Shown here one piece after another: positions 47,377 to 54,503 of a stretch of DNA of 64,000 bases. The stretch comes from Acidobacteriota bacterium. GTDB taxonomy: Bacteria; Acidobacteriota; Terriglobia; Terriglobales; Acidobacteriaceae. Made by a program: the position numbers and the translations under genes. Under the pieces are notes generated by a model. It saw nothing but the letters and a program-made list of their open reading frames with translations. It was not told the DNA's origin and ran no database searches. Within the stretch, counting starts at the first letter, position 1, and each line of letters opens with the position of its first letter. The DNA lies in assembly GCA_019351975.1 (NCBI GenBank), contig JABBOG010000002.1, positions 67,060 through 131,059 on the forward strand, in the 5' to 3' direction.

Positions 47377-47627
47377 GCTTGCGCTATTCCTTCGCACGCA
47401 TTGACGTGCTGTAGTCCCCGTTCGCTGCGAGATATCGCCGTTCGCTGTATAGGCAACGACATAGCGTACCAGCTCACCTAATCTAGAACTTGCAGCGAAT
47501 CGTTCGTTTGTGTGTCTGTTCAAAGCTCAAGCGAATCGACTCTAATACTTCTCGGCTGTGTACTGGCGAAGTACGCTTGGATAGGTTTTCTCGGCATACA
47601 GCGTCGCAGTCAATTTCAGGAGAGATC

Positions 47628-49763
47628 ATGGCAAAGGCAACGAAGGTCTTCGAAAAAGGTATCGTTCTCGGAGCAAAGGCTGGATGGAGTGTTTTTAACA
47701 AGCTGAACTCGATCAGCCCCAATAAGAGCTTTACGCCGAAGTGGTCGGACAAGCCGTTGCTGAAGTCGTATCAGAAGGAGAAGCCGCCCCTCGGCTGGCC
47801 TCGTACCACTGACTCTCTTTGCCCGAAGTGTGTGCCGCAGATTCGTCAGCAGATCGTCGACGGCAAACTGCCGCACGAGATCCTGCTCAATGAGAAGGTC
47901 GGCGAGATCAAGGCGCAGATCATCGAGCGTGACGGCCAGATCCTCATGGTGAAGGACTGCCCGATCCACGGCCACTTTGAAGATGTGATGTCGATCGATA
48001 CCGCCTTCTTCAAGCATTTGGAAGAGGTTTTCCCAGGGCGCGACATTCGCGCGCATAACGATGAGAAGCTGCACAACCACGGAACCTCAACCGTGACCCA
48101 CGGCCGTGGCTCGGTGCTGACCATCGATCTTACAAACCGCTGCAACATGATGTGCGACCCCTGCTTCATGGACGCCAATCAGGTTGGTTTCGTCCACGAG
48201 TTGACGTGGGACGAGATCAAGACTATGCTCGACAACGCGATTACCATCAAGCCAAAGCGTCAGATGTCGGTGCAGTTCTCCGGCGGTGAACCGACGCTGA
48301 GCCCGTACTTTCTGGACGCTGTAGCGTATGCCCGCAAGGTTGGATACACCTCGGTTCAGGCGGCTACCAATGGCATCGAGTTCGCAAAGTCGAAGGAATT
48401 TTCCAAGGCGGCAGCAGAGGCCGGTCTGCGCTATGCGTACCTGCAGTTCGACGGTATTGGCAACGCAGCGAATTCGCACCGCAAGGTTGGTAATGCCTTC
48501 GATGTGAAGCTGCAGGCGATCCACAATCTGCATGAGGCTGGTGTTGACATCGTTCCGGTGACGACGATCGTCAACGGCATCAACAACGAGCAGGTTGGAC
48601 GCATCATCGAGTTCGCGCTCGACAATCCGAAGAAGATCAACTTTCTTTCGTTCCAGCCGGTGAGCTTCACTGGCCGCGACGAAGAGGTGTCGGAGGAGCG
48701 CCGCAAGGCGCAGCGTTACACGCTGTCGCATCTCGCGCATGATGTGAAGAATCAGACAGGTCTCGGCGAGCCGGTACGTGACTGGTTCCCCATCAGCTTC
48801 ATGTCTACATTCTCTGACTGGGCGGATCTGGTGCATGGACCGAATCACGACTGGGGCCAGTTGTCATGCGGCTGCCACCCGAACTGCGGTATCGGTATGG
48901 CGCTGATGATCGACAAGGAAACAAAAGAGGCTGTGCCTGTTACAGCGTTCTTGAACGCAGACCGTCTGGCGAAGGATATTGCGCGCGTGAACGATGCAGC
49001 TCGCGGTAAGTATCTGACGATGGTTGGCGCGGCCCTCGCGCTCATCCGGAACTATGAACCAGCGAATGCGCCTACGCACTTCAGCATATTCTCGCTGTTG
49101 ACGAAGTTTGATAAGTGCTTCGGCGCTACGGGTCGTAACTACGGCAAGGTGTCAGCCGACCGCACGATGGACGATATCAAGATGCGCCGCGCAGACCGCT
49201 GGAACTTCCTGTTCATTGCAGGCATGTGGTTTCAGGATCTCTTCAACTATGACTTCCGTCGCACCGAGCAGTGCATTATCCCGTACGCGACGCAGGAGGG
49301 CGAGATCAGCTTCTGCGCCTACAACACGGGCGTAGGTTGGCGCAACATCATCGAGAAGATGCACATGACCTCATCGCTGACCAAGTGGTATGAGGAGCAC
49401 GGACGTCACGAGATCTTTGCTGGCGGCAAGAAGGTCGGTCTGGAGAAGGAGGCTAAGTATGACCTGGTGCTCAATCAGGAGCATGTGGATGCCGCAGCCA
49501 ACGACACCTTTGATAAGAGCGGCATTGCCAAGAACGCACGCGAAGAGAAGATTCGTGCGCGGGATCAGAAACTGAAGGACGATGCCGAGAATGCACGTAT
49601 GGCCAAGCTGTATCGCAAGGAAATCCTGAAGGAGCCAGAGCTTCCCGGCGGTTTCGTGGCGATTGGAGAGATTGGTGGACTGGGTGGCATCAAGCCCGCC
49701 GCACCGGTCGCGAGCAAGGCTGAGGTTGTACAGAACATCGAAGAGACCGTGGCTGGCGACTAA
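47628..49763 (+). CDS. Radical SAM protein, candidate membrane-spanning lipid synthase (Mss/Tes-like)
   Basis: The 711-residue protein has the radical SAM cluster motif CNMMCDPC (Cys172, Cys176, Cys179) in LTIDLTNRCNMMCDPCFMDA, followed by QFSGGEPTLSP. Ahead of it lies TTDSLCPKC (Cys65, Cys68) and VKDCPIHGHFED (Cys111), the N-terminal metal-binding pattern I recall from the archaeal tetraether synthase family (MJ0619-like). A third Cys group (Cys414, 416, 420: SCGCHPNCGIG) and a long C-terminal part with FCAYNTGVGWRNIIEKMH follow. Tes and bacterial Mss join lipid tails end to end, so the likely product here is the C30 iso-diabolic acid of Acidobacteria. The ATG at 47628 follows AGGAG. It stands alone between mutS2 and a hairpin terminator. 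Confidence 0.72.
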   Translation: MAKATKVFEKGIVLGAKAGWSVFNKLNSISPNKSFTPKWSDKPLLKSYQKEKPPLGWPRTTDSLCPKCVPQIRQQIVDGKLPHEILLNEKVGEIKAQIIERDGQILMVKDCPIHGHFEDVMSIDTAFFKHLEEVFPGRDIRAHNDEKLHNHGTSTVTHGRGSVLTIDLTNRCNMMCDPCFMDANQVGFVHELTWDEIKTMLDNAITIKPKRQMSVQFSGGEPTLSPYFLDAVAYARKVGYTSVQAATNGIEFAKSKEFSKAAAEAGLRYAYLQFDGIGNAANSHRKVGNAFDVKLQAIHNLHEAGVDIVPVTTIVNGINNEQVGRIIEFALDNPKKINFLSFQPVSFTGRDEEVSEERRKAQRYTLSHLAHDVKNQTGLGEPVRDWFPISFMSTFSDWADLVHGPNHDWGQLSCGCHPNCGIGMALMIDKETKEAVPVTAFLNADRLAKDIARVNDAARGKYLTMVGAALALIRNYEPANAPTHFSIFSLLTKFDKCFGATGRNYGKVSADRTMDDIKMRRADRWNFLFIAGMWFQDLFNYDFRRTEQCIIPYATQEGEISFCAYNTGVGWRNIIEKMHMTSSLTKWYEEHGRHEIFAGGKKVGLEKEAKYDLVLNQEHVDAAANDTFDKSGIAKNAREEKIRARDQKLKDDAENARMAKLYRKEILKEPELPGGFVAIGEIGGLGGIKPAAPVASKAEVVQNIEETVAGD

Positions 49764-49787: not shown

Positions 49788-49827
49788 AATGAAGATCGCC
49801 GCCGGGGAACCGGCGGCGATCTTCATT
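49788..49827. terminator. Shared bidirectional terminator hairpin
   Basis: An 18-bp perfect inverted repeat (AATGAAGATCGCCGCCGG and its complement) surrounds the loop GGAA. It lies 24 bp after the radical SAM stop and overlaps the end of the convergent lysozyme gene (stop at 49823). Flanking T-rich bases are short (ATTT on plus), but the stem is very strong. Confidence 0.8.
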
Positions 49828-50353
49828 TGGAATGTGCTTCAGTTGTGCTCGGTGAGAGTCCCAGATACTGGATCGCGTTACTGAGAAAGAGCGCTTGTTC
49901 AGCTTTTCTCCTACGTACAAGGCCAGCAACGACTTCACCACCTGCATGGACCCAAAGCAGAAACTGCGCTGCAGCACCGGCGAAATCTTCCAGATTCACC
50001 TTCCGCAGCAGGCTTGACTGCATAAAATTCCCCCGGCCGGCGTTGAAGCAGAAGTCGACGAGCGCATCGAACTGCGTCTGGCAGATCTCAACTTTTACGG
50101 CCTTGTTGACGCAATTGATCGCGTCGGCGAGATCGGCACGCAGGAGCATTTCGGCTTCCGGCTCCGTAATCGTCATCCCCTCTAGCAGCGAAGGTCCGGT
50201 GTGGCCGTAACCGATCGTCCAGATGCCTGCGCAGTCGCGATATGCGTGTAGGCGTAGACCTTCAAAGCTCTTGGTGAGTTCGAGTCCTTCTTGACTGTAA
50301 GAAAATGTCTGCATGGTCGGCGCACCTCCAAGGGCGCCATCTGTTTCTGTCAT
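49823..50353 (-). CDS. GH24 (T4/lambdoid-type) lysozyme, phage endolysin-like
   Basis: The 176-residue protein has the GH24 catalytic pattern: Glu in LTKSFEGLRLHAYRDCAGIW, then TIGYGHTGPSLLEGMTIT (Thr of the E-8-D-5-T-type triad; the middle residue lies in the YRDCAG segment). FDALVDFCFNAGRGNF is the conserved C-lobe helix, followed by LVRRRKAEQALF. It cleaves peptidoglycan and has no signal peptide, so it would need a holin or other route out. The likely start is ATG 50353 or ATG 50314 (MQTFSYSQEG, GGAGG ten bases upstream). It lies 4.2 kb from the phage-like cassette at 54555, with lipoyl-enzyme genes between. Confidence 0.88.
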   Translation of the reverse strand: MTETDGALGGAPTMQTFSYSQEGLELTKSFEGLRLHAYRDCAGIWTIGYGHTGPSLLEGMTITEPEAEMLLRADLADAINCVNKAVKVEICQTQFDALVDFCFNAGRGNFMQSSLLRKVNLEDFAGAAAQFLLWVHAGGEVVAGLVRRRKAEQALFLSNAIQYLGLSPSTTEAHSK

Positions 50354-52005: not shown

Positions 52006-52740
52006 ATGCACATCCACCTCCTTCAACTCGGCCGCATCCCCTACGCCGAAGGCCTGCGCATCCAAGCCGAGGTCGTTGCCGCTCGTAAAGCGCAGCGCAT
52101 CGGCGACACGCTGCTGCTAATGGAGCACCCTCCGGTGCTGACGCTCGGACGCAACGCCATCCGCGCCAATATTCTCGCCGCGGACGAACTGCTGGCACAG
52201 CGTGGCGTAGAGATTCACGAGATCAATCGCGGTGGAGACGTCACCTACCACGGCCCCGGCCAGCTCGTCGGTTACCCCATCTTCGACCTACGCGGCGATC
52301 TCCCGGGCAAGCGCGGCCCCCACCTCGGCCCCGTAGACTTCGTCCGGCTCCTGGAAGAGGCCATCATCCTCACCTGTAAGGACTTCGGTATCCCAGCTCA
52401 ACGCATCTGCAAGCTTACAGGTGTCTGGACGCTCGCCGGAGGCAGCGTCCGCGAAAAGAAGATTGCAGCCATCGGCGTTCATGTTTCCCAGGCGATCACG
52501 TCCCACGGCTTTGCGCTGAACGTAACCACGGACCTTCGCGACTTCGACTGGATCGTCCCATGCGGCATCACTGACCGAACGGTGACCTCCCTCGAACTGG
52601 AATCACCTATCTCGCCAAATCCCTCGATGCAACACGCAGCCAACAGTATCTCGGCAAACTTTGGCCGCGTCTTCCAGCGCCAAATGCTCGCAGCCTCCAC
52701 ATTCGGTGACCTGCTGTCGGTATCGCAAACTCTCTCATAG
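52006..52740 (+). CDS. lipB: Octanoyltransferase (lipoate biosynthesis)
   Basis: The 244-residue protein has the LipB blocks LLLMEHPPVLTLGR, EINRGGDVTYHGPGQLVGYPIFDL, VREKKIAAIGVHVSQAITSHGFALN (catalytic Lys) and VPCGITDRTVTSL (catalytic Cys). It moves octanoate from acyl carrier protein to the lipoyl domains of dehydrogenase E2 subunits; LipA, not seen in the window, then inserts sulfur. Its place between E3 and E2 genes links it functionally to them. The C-terminal 30 residues are longer than in E. coli LipB (213). Confidence 0.94.
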   Translation: MHIHLLQLGRIPYAEGLRIQAEVVAARKAQRIGDTLLLMEHPPVLTLGRNAIRANILAADELLAQRGVEIHEINRGGDVTYHGPGQLVGYPIFDLRGDLPGKRGPHLGPVDFVRLLEEAIILTCKDFGIPAQRICKLTGVWTLAGGSVREKKIAAIGVHVSQAITSHGFALNVTTDLRDFDWIVPCGITDRTVTSLELESPISPNPSMQHAANSISANFGRVFQRQMLAASTFGDLLSVSQTLS

Positions 52741-52868
52741 ACTTTCATACCTCCCAGTACAAATAATCCGCTAAACGCGCACGCCTTCGAGCCAGCATCC
52801 AAACTACAGCCGTATAATTCCTATGGTTGCGCCACTAACACTAAAGATTCCACCGGAGATACTTGCAC

Positions 52869-54503
52869 ATGCCGATCGACGTAGTCATGCCCCAGATGGG
52901 CGAATCCATCACTGAAGGAACGCTGACCAGATGGCTCAAGAAGCCGGGTGACACCGTCGCGCGCGACGAACCGTTGTTCGAGATCTCTACCGACAAGGTA
53001 GATGCAGAGATTCCATCGCCTGCGGCTGGCGTTCTGGGCGACGTCAAGGTCGAAGAGGGCGCGACCGTTGTCGTTGGAACGGTTGTCTGTGCCATCAACG
53101 AAGCAGCTGCCGGAGCCACCCCGGTCCCTGCATCCTCGTCCAAGGAAGACACCGTCACCCCGGCAGCCGTGGATACAGCGGCGAAGGATGAGGCTATCGC
53201 CGCACCAGCGCCCGAAACGAGCACACCCGGCACCGAGGTTCTCATGCCGCAGATGGGCGAGTCCATCACAGAAGGCACGCTCACCAAGTGGCTCAAGAAG
53301 ATCGGTGATACGGTCGCGCGCGACGAGCCCATCTTTGAGATCTCCACCGACAAAGTCGATGCAGAGATCCCCTCCCCCATCGCAGGTACGCTGTCGGAGA
53401 TCCGCGTTCAAGAGGGAGAAACAGTCACCATTAACACTGTGGTTGCAGTGATCGGTGGTGGAGCCGCAGCCCCCAAGCCTGCAGTAGCTCCTGCGCAGCA
53501 AGCGCCTTCCACGCAGCCATCAGGCATTCCCGCCGCGACAGCTTCTGCATCTGTCGGAGAGACGCCACGCTCCTCGCCGCTCGTCCGCAAAATCGCCTCC
53601 GAAAACAACGTCGACCTCAAAGGTATCCCTGGCACCGGTGCCTCCGGACGCATCACAAAGCAGGATATCCTCGGCCATCTGGAAGGCGCGCCGGCAGCGA
53701 CCGCTCCAGCCGCCACTACTCCCGTGGCAGCACCCGTCACGCCGCCCCCGCCAGCCACAGCGGCAAAGCCTGCGCCATCCACCGCTGCCGCTCCCACCCC
53801 CGGCGAGCTCGTTCCGCTCTCCAAGATGCGCTCCATCATCGCAAAGCGCATGGTCGAGTCCAAAGCCACCAGCCCACACGTTCATACCGTCTTCAAGGTG
53901 GACATGACGCGCATCGTCAAGCTGCGCGAAAAGGAGAAGAACAAGTATGAGCAGCGCAACGGCGTAAAGCTCACCTACATGCCGTTCATCACCCGTGCGG
54001 CCGTACAGGCTCTGCGCAAACACCCCATCGTCAACGCATCCATGCAGGGCGAAGCGATCCTTTACAACAAGAACATCAACATCGGTATCGCGGTTGCTCT
54101 CGAATGGGGTCTGATCGTGCCAGTCGTCAAGCAAACTGAGGAGAAGAGCTTCCTCGGCATTGCGCGCTCGATCGTTGACATCGCTGATCGCGCCCGCTCC
54201 AAAAAACTCGCACCTGACGAAGTCGCAGGCGGAACCTTCACCCTTACAAACTCAGGCATCTTCGGAGAGCAATTCGGCACACCGATCATCGCTCAGCCAC
54301 AATCCGCCATCCTCGGCATCGGTGGCCTCAGCAAAGAGGCCATCGTCCTCACCGACAAAGACGGCCAGGATACGATCGCTGTCCGCACCATCCAATATTT
54401 CACCCTCGGCTTCGATCACCGCATCATCGACGGTGCCGACGCAGGCAAGTTCATGTCAGACTTCAAAGCCTACCTCGAAAACTGGTCCGAAGACATCGGC
54501 TAA
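52869..54503 (+). CDS. sucB: 2-oxo acid dehydrogenase E2, dihydrolipoamide acyltransferase with two lipoyl domains
   Basis: The 544-residue protein has two lipoyl domains (about 1-75 and 118-195; lipoylated Lys43 and Lys162 in EISTDKVDAE). Ala/Pro-rich linkers, a peripheral-subunit-binding domain (SSPLVRKIASENNVDLKGIP and GASGRITKQDIL) and the catalytic domain with FDHRIIDGADAGKF follow. The domain count resembles actinobacterial and deinococcal E2 proteins. Succinyl- versus acetyl- or branched-acyl specificity cannot be settled, so the gene symbol is tentative. The first 47 residues of the two lipoyl domains are almost identical. ATG 52869 is used; a TTG at 52863 is possible. E1 is elsewhere. 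Confidence 0.88.
   Translation: MPIDVVMPQMGESITEGTLTRWLKKPGDTVARDEPLFEISTDKVDAEIPSPAAGVLGDVKVEEGATVVVGTVVCAINEAAAGATPVPASSSKEDTVTPAAVDTAAKDEAIAAPAPETSTPGTEVLMPQMGESITEGTLTKWLKKIGDTVARDEPIFEISTDKVDAEIPSPIAGTLSEIRVQEGETVTINTVVAVIGGGAAAPKPAVAPAQQAPSTQPSGIPAATASASVGETPRSSPLVRKIASENNVDLKGIPGTGASGRITKQDILGHLEGAPAATAPAATTPVAAPVTPPPPATAAKPAPSTAAAPTPGELVPLSKMRSIIAKRMVESKATSPHVHTVFKVDMTRIVKLREKEKNKYEQRNGVKLTYMPFITRAAVQALRKHPIVNASMQGEAILYNKNINIGIAVALEWGLIVPVVKQTEEKSFLGIARSIVDIADRARSKKLAPDEVAGGTFTLTNSGIFGEQFGTPIIAQPQSAILGIGGLSKEAIVLTDKDGQDTIAVRTIQYFTLGFDHRIIDGADAGKFMSDFKAYLENWSEDIG

Follow-up and report, generated by a model that had tools for sequence, protein, structure and literature searches.

The 64,000-nucleotide stretch of acidobacterial DNA analysed here (the window) encodes a bacterial Tes-related radical SAM enzyme, P0001, that probably forms the membrane-spanning iso-diabolic acid chain from two iso-C15 tails; we put the probability of this reading at about 0.75. 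Profile, fold and tree all group it with archaeal tetraether synthase (Tes/GDGT-MAS), and it appears to be the leading candidate for the iso-diabolic acid step in soil Acidobacteria. Common soil bacteria contain iso-diabolic acid as a major fatty acid; it is also a building block of brGDGTs, the lipids read for past temperature and pH, and the activity of bacterial Tes homologs was called unconfirmed in a Black Sea study (PMC11868695). Which enzyme makes it can be put to a direct test, since the gene is near-universal, mostly present once per genome and carried by cultivable hosts. Family, fold, ligands and near-universality are results of this analysis, the radical mechanism is taken from the work on MJ0619 (PMC9433317), and substrate and product we infer.

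The reading frame (47628-49763, plus strand) translates into 711 residues with zero internal stops, is preceded by a good ribosome-binding site and lies on contig 5 of a 3.9-Mb host genome that is 95% complete (Table 1). Its counterparts at the 80 best of 574 retained loci, all named, are 74-96% identical to P0001, and the top two, both at 96%, belong to Granulicella sp. S156 and Granulicella sp. UBA5172; judged by sequence, the host is an acidobacterium of the Acidobacteriaceae (subdivision 1), most likely of the genus Granulicella. The gene is single copy in its own genome, where the next Tes-model matches are at 1.9e-16 and weaker, a level seen for any radical SAM protein.

Table 1. Features of the P0001 gene and protein in window coordinates
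Feature	Position	Strand	Size or basis
AGGAGA ribosome-binding site ahead of ATG at 47628	47618..47623	+	sequence
Tes-related radical SAM protein (P0001, clade B)	47628..49763	+	711 aa + stop
N-terminal amphipathic helix, residues 3-27	47634..47708	+	secondary structure of model
Rubredoxin-type domain, residues 58-122, ligands C65, C68, C111, H114	47799..47993	+	PF23545 E 1.3e-12
Place of Tes N-terminal auxiliary [Fe4S4], residues 143-157; ligands gone	48054..48098	+	alignment
Radical SAM core, residues 168-330	48129..48617	+	PF04055 E 3.2e-18
CX3CX2C for radical SAM cluster, C172, C176, C179	48141..48164	+	alignment
C414-x-C416-x3-C420; C420 aligned to MJ0619 C338	48867..48887	+	alignment
M533, counterpart of MJ0619 labile cluster ligand Met439	49224..49226	+	alignment
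C549, aligned to MJ0619 C455, [Fe4S4]C ligand by homology	49272..49274	+	alignment
C563, aligned to MJ0619 C470, [Fe4S4]C ligand by homology	49314..49316	+	alignment
C-terminal extension, residues 596-711, past Tes fold	49413..49763	+	model + fold comparison

The first-pass annotation had called P0001 an Mss/Tes-like radical SAM enzyme and had proposed profile searches, a tree and a comparison of predicted structures as checks, and all three agree with assignment to the Tes (MJ0619) type. Among NCBIfam models the tetraether lipid synthase Tes (NF045702) ranks first (E 1.1e-95, 321 bits), followed among the best 25 of 40 matches by TrsS (210 bits), an intein form of Tes (166 bits) and core-only families (81 bits or fewer). 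The score lies under the curated NF045702 cut-off of 450 bits, in line with the earlier expectation that automatic annotation would probably under-name the protein. Pfam recognizes the radical SAM core (PF04055) and an HMPTM zinc-ribbon domain, the name of which presumably traces to the old annotation of MJ0619. A sequence search of the PDB returned GDGT-MAS at E 4.8e-59 and the next relative at 2.1e-6. An AlphaFold2 model built with 52 sequences from the window and the fetched loci (pLDDT 88.6, pTM 0.88) found GDGT-MAS in Foldseek at E 2.9e-34 (next family 1.5e-8), and its overall fold matches 7tom (Z 41.2, r.m.s.d. 2.6, 480/498 residues; the next family, MoaA, has a Z of 19.7).

Our comparison set comprised 143 locus proteins together with P0001 and MJ0619, split into clades by BLAST score: 106 P0001-like proteins (clade B), 29 canonical Tes (clade A) and 8 proteins of a clade C, whose top NCBIfam score is TrsS in the two tested. 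Excluded from the ligand counts below are the fragment L009, L029, L127, L138, L139 (partial), duplicate sequences and L151-L153, which include the B2 paralogs; one of the 106 clade B rows is gapped at N-terminal sites, so that counts there run to 105. An IQ-TREE phylogeny of 53 sequences (29 clade A, 8 clade C, 14 picked clade B, P0001 and MJ0619), rooted on clade C, recovers clade B as monophyletic (UFBoot 100, stem 0.82) and places it among clade A, beside L028 (88) and L030/L031 (100), with several deeper clade A nodes weak (18-66); a preceding FastTree run had given clade B a support of 0.147. P0001 is thus nested among bacterial Tes. Because clade B is monophyletic (100) and placed among clade A, it looks like a derived bacterial Tes.

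A lipid-synthase role for the P0001 ortholog is a prior published proposal and not new. Zeng et al. 2022 described an E. aggregans Tes homolog with 32% identity to the archaeal query and proposed a role in brGDGT formation (PMC8941075), alongside Koribacter and Solibacter homologs at 42% and 40% to archaeal Tes, and a similar role was suggested for Solibacter by Halamka et al. (PMC10087280). The E. aggregans homolog is almost surely the P0001 ortholog, because L045, the one full-length Tes-family gene of E. aggregans DSM 19364, shares 87% identity with P0001. E. aggregans differs from the window genome in being a published brGDGT maker (PMC13274423, PMC8941075) and in encoding a DUF2229 protein with two BadF stretches.

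The occurrence of the gene was compared with published lipid analyses. In a sample of the phylum, 211 of 396 genomes have a Tes-model match at E<=1e-25, and 34 of these 211 pass the Tes cut-off and are canonical Tes. A P0001 relative is found at 1e-40 in 277 of 299 family genomes (216 of the 227 good ones), a count that includes some split or weaker matches and perhaps a few paralogs; 22 of the 299, 11 of them among the good genomes, have no match at this threshold. As a share of fatty acids, iso-diabolic acid ranges over 12-30% across six Edaphobacter strains, with 30.4% for E. modestus DSM 18101 and 26.4% for E. aggregans DSM 19364 (PMC11354219); it amounts to 26.8-49.2% in five members of the Occallatibacter, Terracidiphilus and Telmatobacter group (PMC12935467), about 30% in two further strains (PMC6252331), and 20-40% in 17 subdivision 1 and 3 cultures cited in PMC13274423. 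Gene and lipid are known in exactly the same strain for E. modestus and E. aggregans only. The single Tes-family gene of E. modestus (G404, L048) at E<=1e-20 is the P0001 ortholog, and at the same threshold E. aggregans has the full-length ortholog and a 402-codon open frame of a second type. For the window strain or any Granulicella, we found no lipid measurement in the literature. That iso-branched and isoprenoid tails share like ends has been argued in PMC8941075. The view of the first-pass annotation that the gene is a good iso-diabolic acid candidate in a subdivision 1 acidobacterium is consistent with the 277/299 count and with the E. modestus lipids. A Tes homolog alone does not imply iso-diabolic acid, because Solibacter usitatus has two and, according to PMC10087280, makes none of it but only tetraethers and lesser ethers.

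S. usitatus would also fit a different division of labour, in which P0001 couples tails, iso-diabolic acid is not its main product (other tails, ether lipids or a second tetraether bridge being made instead) and a T. maritima-type Mss makes iso-diabolic acid. T. maritima Mss was confirmed earlier via expression in E. coli, as related in PMC11604127, although co-expression with ger in that paper itself gave no membrane-spanning lipid, and a survey that covered 97 acidobacterial MAGs saw Mss homologs in 11 (PMC11868695). We regard this division as unlikely: clade B is near-universal in this iso-diabolic-acid-rich family, and E. modestus has its iso-diabolic acid without a second Tes-family gene at 1e-20. 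Mss, from T. maritima and Bacillota, resembles P0001 in its proposed reaction, the joining of fatty acyl tails, and Mss models share the catalytic architecture of Tes according to PMC13274423. The first-pass annotation had joined the two, and here our results depart from it. We told them apart by searches of the T. maritima genome with the Tes model and PF23545. At 1e-8 the Tes model matches T. maritima as it does all 14 controls; at 1e-20 it matches B. subtilis, Thermus and three archaea and not T. maritima, and PF23545 at 0.001 matches only the three archaea among the controls, again without T. maritima. Because that genome has neither match at 1e-20 and 0.001, P0001 is, judged by these genome searches, probably on the Tes side.

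The linkage of the product was approached through DUF2229, which we take PlsA/Ger-type proteins (ester reductases) to carry. In the search controls T. maritima, the source of ger, matches, and Lactococcus does too. DUF2229 has no match in the window genome, in any of five named Granulicella, in seven listed members of the genus or in E. modestus. It is present in 6 of 24 chosen genomes, namely E. aggregans, E. lichenicola M8UP30, one subdivision 3 MAG and three other family members that also carry a canonical Tes on the clade B contig, and in a wider draw in 57 of 150 family genomes. The product of the window strain should be ester-bound, without the brGDGT ethers of the Ger route, because its genome lacks a DUF2229 match. 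DUF2229 alone is not proof of Ger; Ger has been tied to homologs with two PF01869 activation domains (PMC13274423), and the E. aggregans protein has two PF01869 (BadF) stretches together with DUF2229. A simple rule by which Ger presence means ether-lipid formation agrees with E. aggregans, which has DUF2229, and with E. modestus, which lacks it. We rejected it, as it is countered by the 57 of 150 genomes with DUF2229 and by the Edaphobacter paludis paper, which gives zero ethers under its conditions in the strains grown, E. aggregans included (PMC11354219).

MJ0619 contains four metal sites (PMC9433317): a rubredoxin-type iron (C9, C12, C33, H36), an N-terminal auxiliary cluster, [Fe4S4]N (C73, C77, C80 and a His), the radical SAM cluster, and a C-terminal auxiliary cluster, [Fe4S4]C, with the labile Met439. 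P0001 is about 30% identical to archaeal Tes/GDGT-MAS (MJ0619, 7TOL, 7TOM) and shares with it the whole fold, the rubredoxin-type site, the radical SAM cluster, [Fe4S4]C with its labile Met and the active-site Gln and Arg, whereas it stands in a bacterial host, lacks the N-terminal auxiliary cluster and adds a 22-residue insert in the rubredoxin loop, N- and C-terminal extensions and an invariant C414. Canonical bacterial Tes (clade A), its parent group in the tree, has the same retained ligands but is 39-48% identical to MJ0619 (29 sequences) and keeps all four metal sites in 29/29.

The cysteines named by the first-pass annotation, C65, C68, C111 (in CPIHG), C172/C176/C179 (CX3CX2C) and C414/C416/C420, are all found at these positions. 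They do not occur by chance, because they are kept in every covering clade B row (C65, C68, C111, C172, C176 and C179 each 105/105; C414, C416 and C420 each 106/106) in proteins 74-96% identical over the 80 loci. The Tes/Mss cysteine layout read from them holds for three Tes metal sites, and the absence of the fourth, [Fe4S4]N, had gone unremarked; likewise, in the third cysteine group C420 corresponds to an [Fe4S4]C ligand, but MJ0619 has Leu and Ser at the positions of C414 and C416. The [Fe4S4]C ligands by alignment with MJ0619 are C420, C549, C563 and M533, each present in 106/106 clade B rows, and from alignment and conservation the three cysteines would by homology bind this cluster. Eleven retained ligands (rubredoxin-type, radical SAM, the three [Fe4S4]C cysteines and the Met) occur together in 104/105 covering clade B rows, 29/29 clade A and 0/8 clade C. 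The MJ0619 active-site residues Gln-268 and Arg-275 are retained in 105/105 clade B rows and Tyr-459 (Y553 in P0001) in 106/106. The M439A and Y459 variants of MJ0619 remained active (Lloyd et al., PMC9433317).

[Fe4S4]C is thought to hold the first substrate radical, and its likely ligands are kept in P0001. In the reaction that we propose, the radical SAM cluster would split SAM to give a 5'-deoxyadenosyl radical, which would take a hydrogen from the terminal carbon of a phospholipid iso-C15 tail in a hydrophobic pocket. The carbon radical would be held on the C-terminal auxiliary cluster (C420, C549, C563, M533), and a second SAM would yield a second tail radical that couples with the held carbon to form a 13,16-dimethyl C28 chain. 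Radical SAM enzymes switch reaction on one scaffold, and clade B has lost a cluster and gained C414 and the 22-residue insert. The Tes scaffold might accordingly run another lipid reaction, such as C5/C6 chain methylation or tail desaturation, and MJ0619 was itself originally labelled a pterin methylase (PMC9433317). We consider such a switch improbable, as the [Fe4S4]C cysteines and Met, which adjoin the coupling site of MJ0619, are invariant in 106/106 rows. The scaffold alone does not preserve these ligands, because some are missing from clade C and the Acidicapsa B2 paralog has lost the cysteines.

At the place of [Fe4S4]N, any cysteine at residues 139-160 is found in 0/105 clade B rows; all three cysteines are present in 29/29 clade A proteins. 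Conserved in clade B at this place are H143, D145, H149, H151 and S154; D145, H149 and H151 occur together in 104/105 rows, and with H143 also in 99/105. This H-x-D-x3-H-x-H patch (H143, D145, H149, H151) could perhaps form a mononuclear metal site, and the model confidence of its two blocks (pLDDT 67 and 75) is below most of the fold. The rubredoxin loop between C68 and C111 measures 42 residues in 105/105 clade B rows compared with 20 in MJ0619 and in 29/29 of clade A, and C414, a Cys in 106/106 clade B rows, is not among the commonest clade A residues there. Clade C proteins (L132-L137, L141; 458-483 residues) show the opposite pattern to clade B, with the [Fe4S4]N cysteines in 8/8 and parts of [Fe4S4]C absent. 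The N-terminal helix (residues 3-27) has a hydrophobic moment of 0.35-0.43 compared with a protein mean of 0.22, lies outside the MJ0619-aligned stretch and, going by the model, may contact the membrane. The C-terminal extension contains a helix (residues 637-665) and is modelled with low confidence from residue 683.

By losing one cluster, clade B offers a natural experiment on the function of the additional Tes clusters; Lloyd et al. describe the part played by the remaining metallocofactors as not clear (PMC9433317). In the literature searched we found no description of [Fe4S4]N loss in a near-universal acidobacterial clade. Oxygen as the cause of the loss of a surface cluster was considered and is a weak hint: haem-copper oxidase (E<1e-120) is encoded in 16/17 genomes with a single match at clade B level, 9/16 with a single clade A protein and 7/12 without a Tes-model match. 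A Fisher test of the first group against the second gives p 0.017, in hand-picked genomes whose kin are not independent. The rule is not strict, as families f5 and f17 have clade A with all cysteines and an oxidase.

More tentatively, and with somewhat less than even odds, clade B may have branched off within bacterial Tes as a subfamily of its own, which discarded the surface [Fe4S4]N and carries H-x-D-x3-H-x-H in its place. It would then serve subdivisions 1 and 3 generally as their iso-diabolic acid synthase, the product being ester-bound where clade B acts alone and going into brGDGT ethers where Ger-type genes, sometimes with a nearby canonical Tes, are added. If so, two sp3 carbons can be joined without the N-terminal cluster. 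Against iso-diabolic acid synthesis by P0001 stand the score of 321 under 450 bits, the lost metal site, the lack of shared lipid neighbours, the 22/299 gaps, S. usitatus and the pairing of gene and lipid in two strains only.

Several genomes contain further family members. In G253, G067 and G111 a canonical clade A Tes lies on the contig of the clade B gene (L142:11817-16000 (-), L143 and L144), separated from it by 320 bp in G253 and by roughly 3 to 6 kb in G067 and G111; each of the three has two DUF2229 genes elsewhere in the genome. B2 paralogs with 41-44% identity to P0001 occur in Acidicapsa dinghuensis and E. aggregans (L152:2823-4532 (-), L151:3066-4085 (+)). The Acidicapsa copy is devoid of the [Fe4S4]C cysteines too, and similarity of the E. 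aggregans copy ends at residue 361. Clade B is present twice in G056, the copies sharing 89% and 84% identity with P0001 (L153:6583-8625 (-), L145:2374-4473 (+)).

No widely shared gene neighbour ties P0001 to lipids among the 80 named loci. The most recurrent window neighbour is the upstream histidine kinase gene (10/80), with mutS2 at 4/80, lipB at 2/80 and the E2 gene at 2/80, many contigs being short; in the 40 loci with 6 kb on each side the last three number 2, 0 and 0. When the window is not used as a guide, the commonest neighbour families reach 14/40 and 13/40 of these loci. A peptide- or cofactor-modifying enzyme outside lipid metabolism, suggested by weak NCBIfam matches of P0001 to MoaA, NirJ, AhbC and PqqE, is very improbable, since these matches span the core common to the superfamily and score at least about 240 bits under Tes (among the best 25 of 40), the full-length fold matches GDGT-MAS only, and no widely shared neighbours (80 named loci) point that way.

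Downstream of the Tes-like gene the window contains lipB and, after it, a gene for a 2-oxoacid dehydrogenase E2 of SucB type that has two lipoyl stretches (52006-54503, plus strand). An operon tie from this pair to branched-chain acid supply was rejected, as the E2 is SucB-type and the neighbours seldom recur. Directly downstream and convergent with the Tes-like gene lies a phage-type lysozyme gene (49823-50353, minus strand; PF00959, E 6e-47), a relative of which stands beside the gene in 1 of the 80 named loci.
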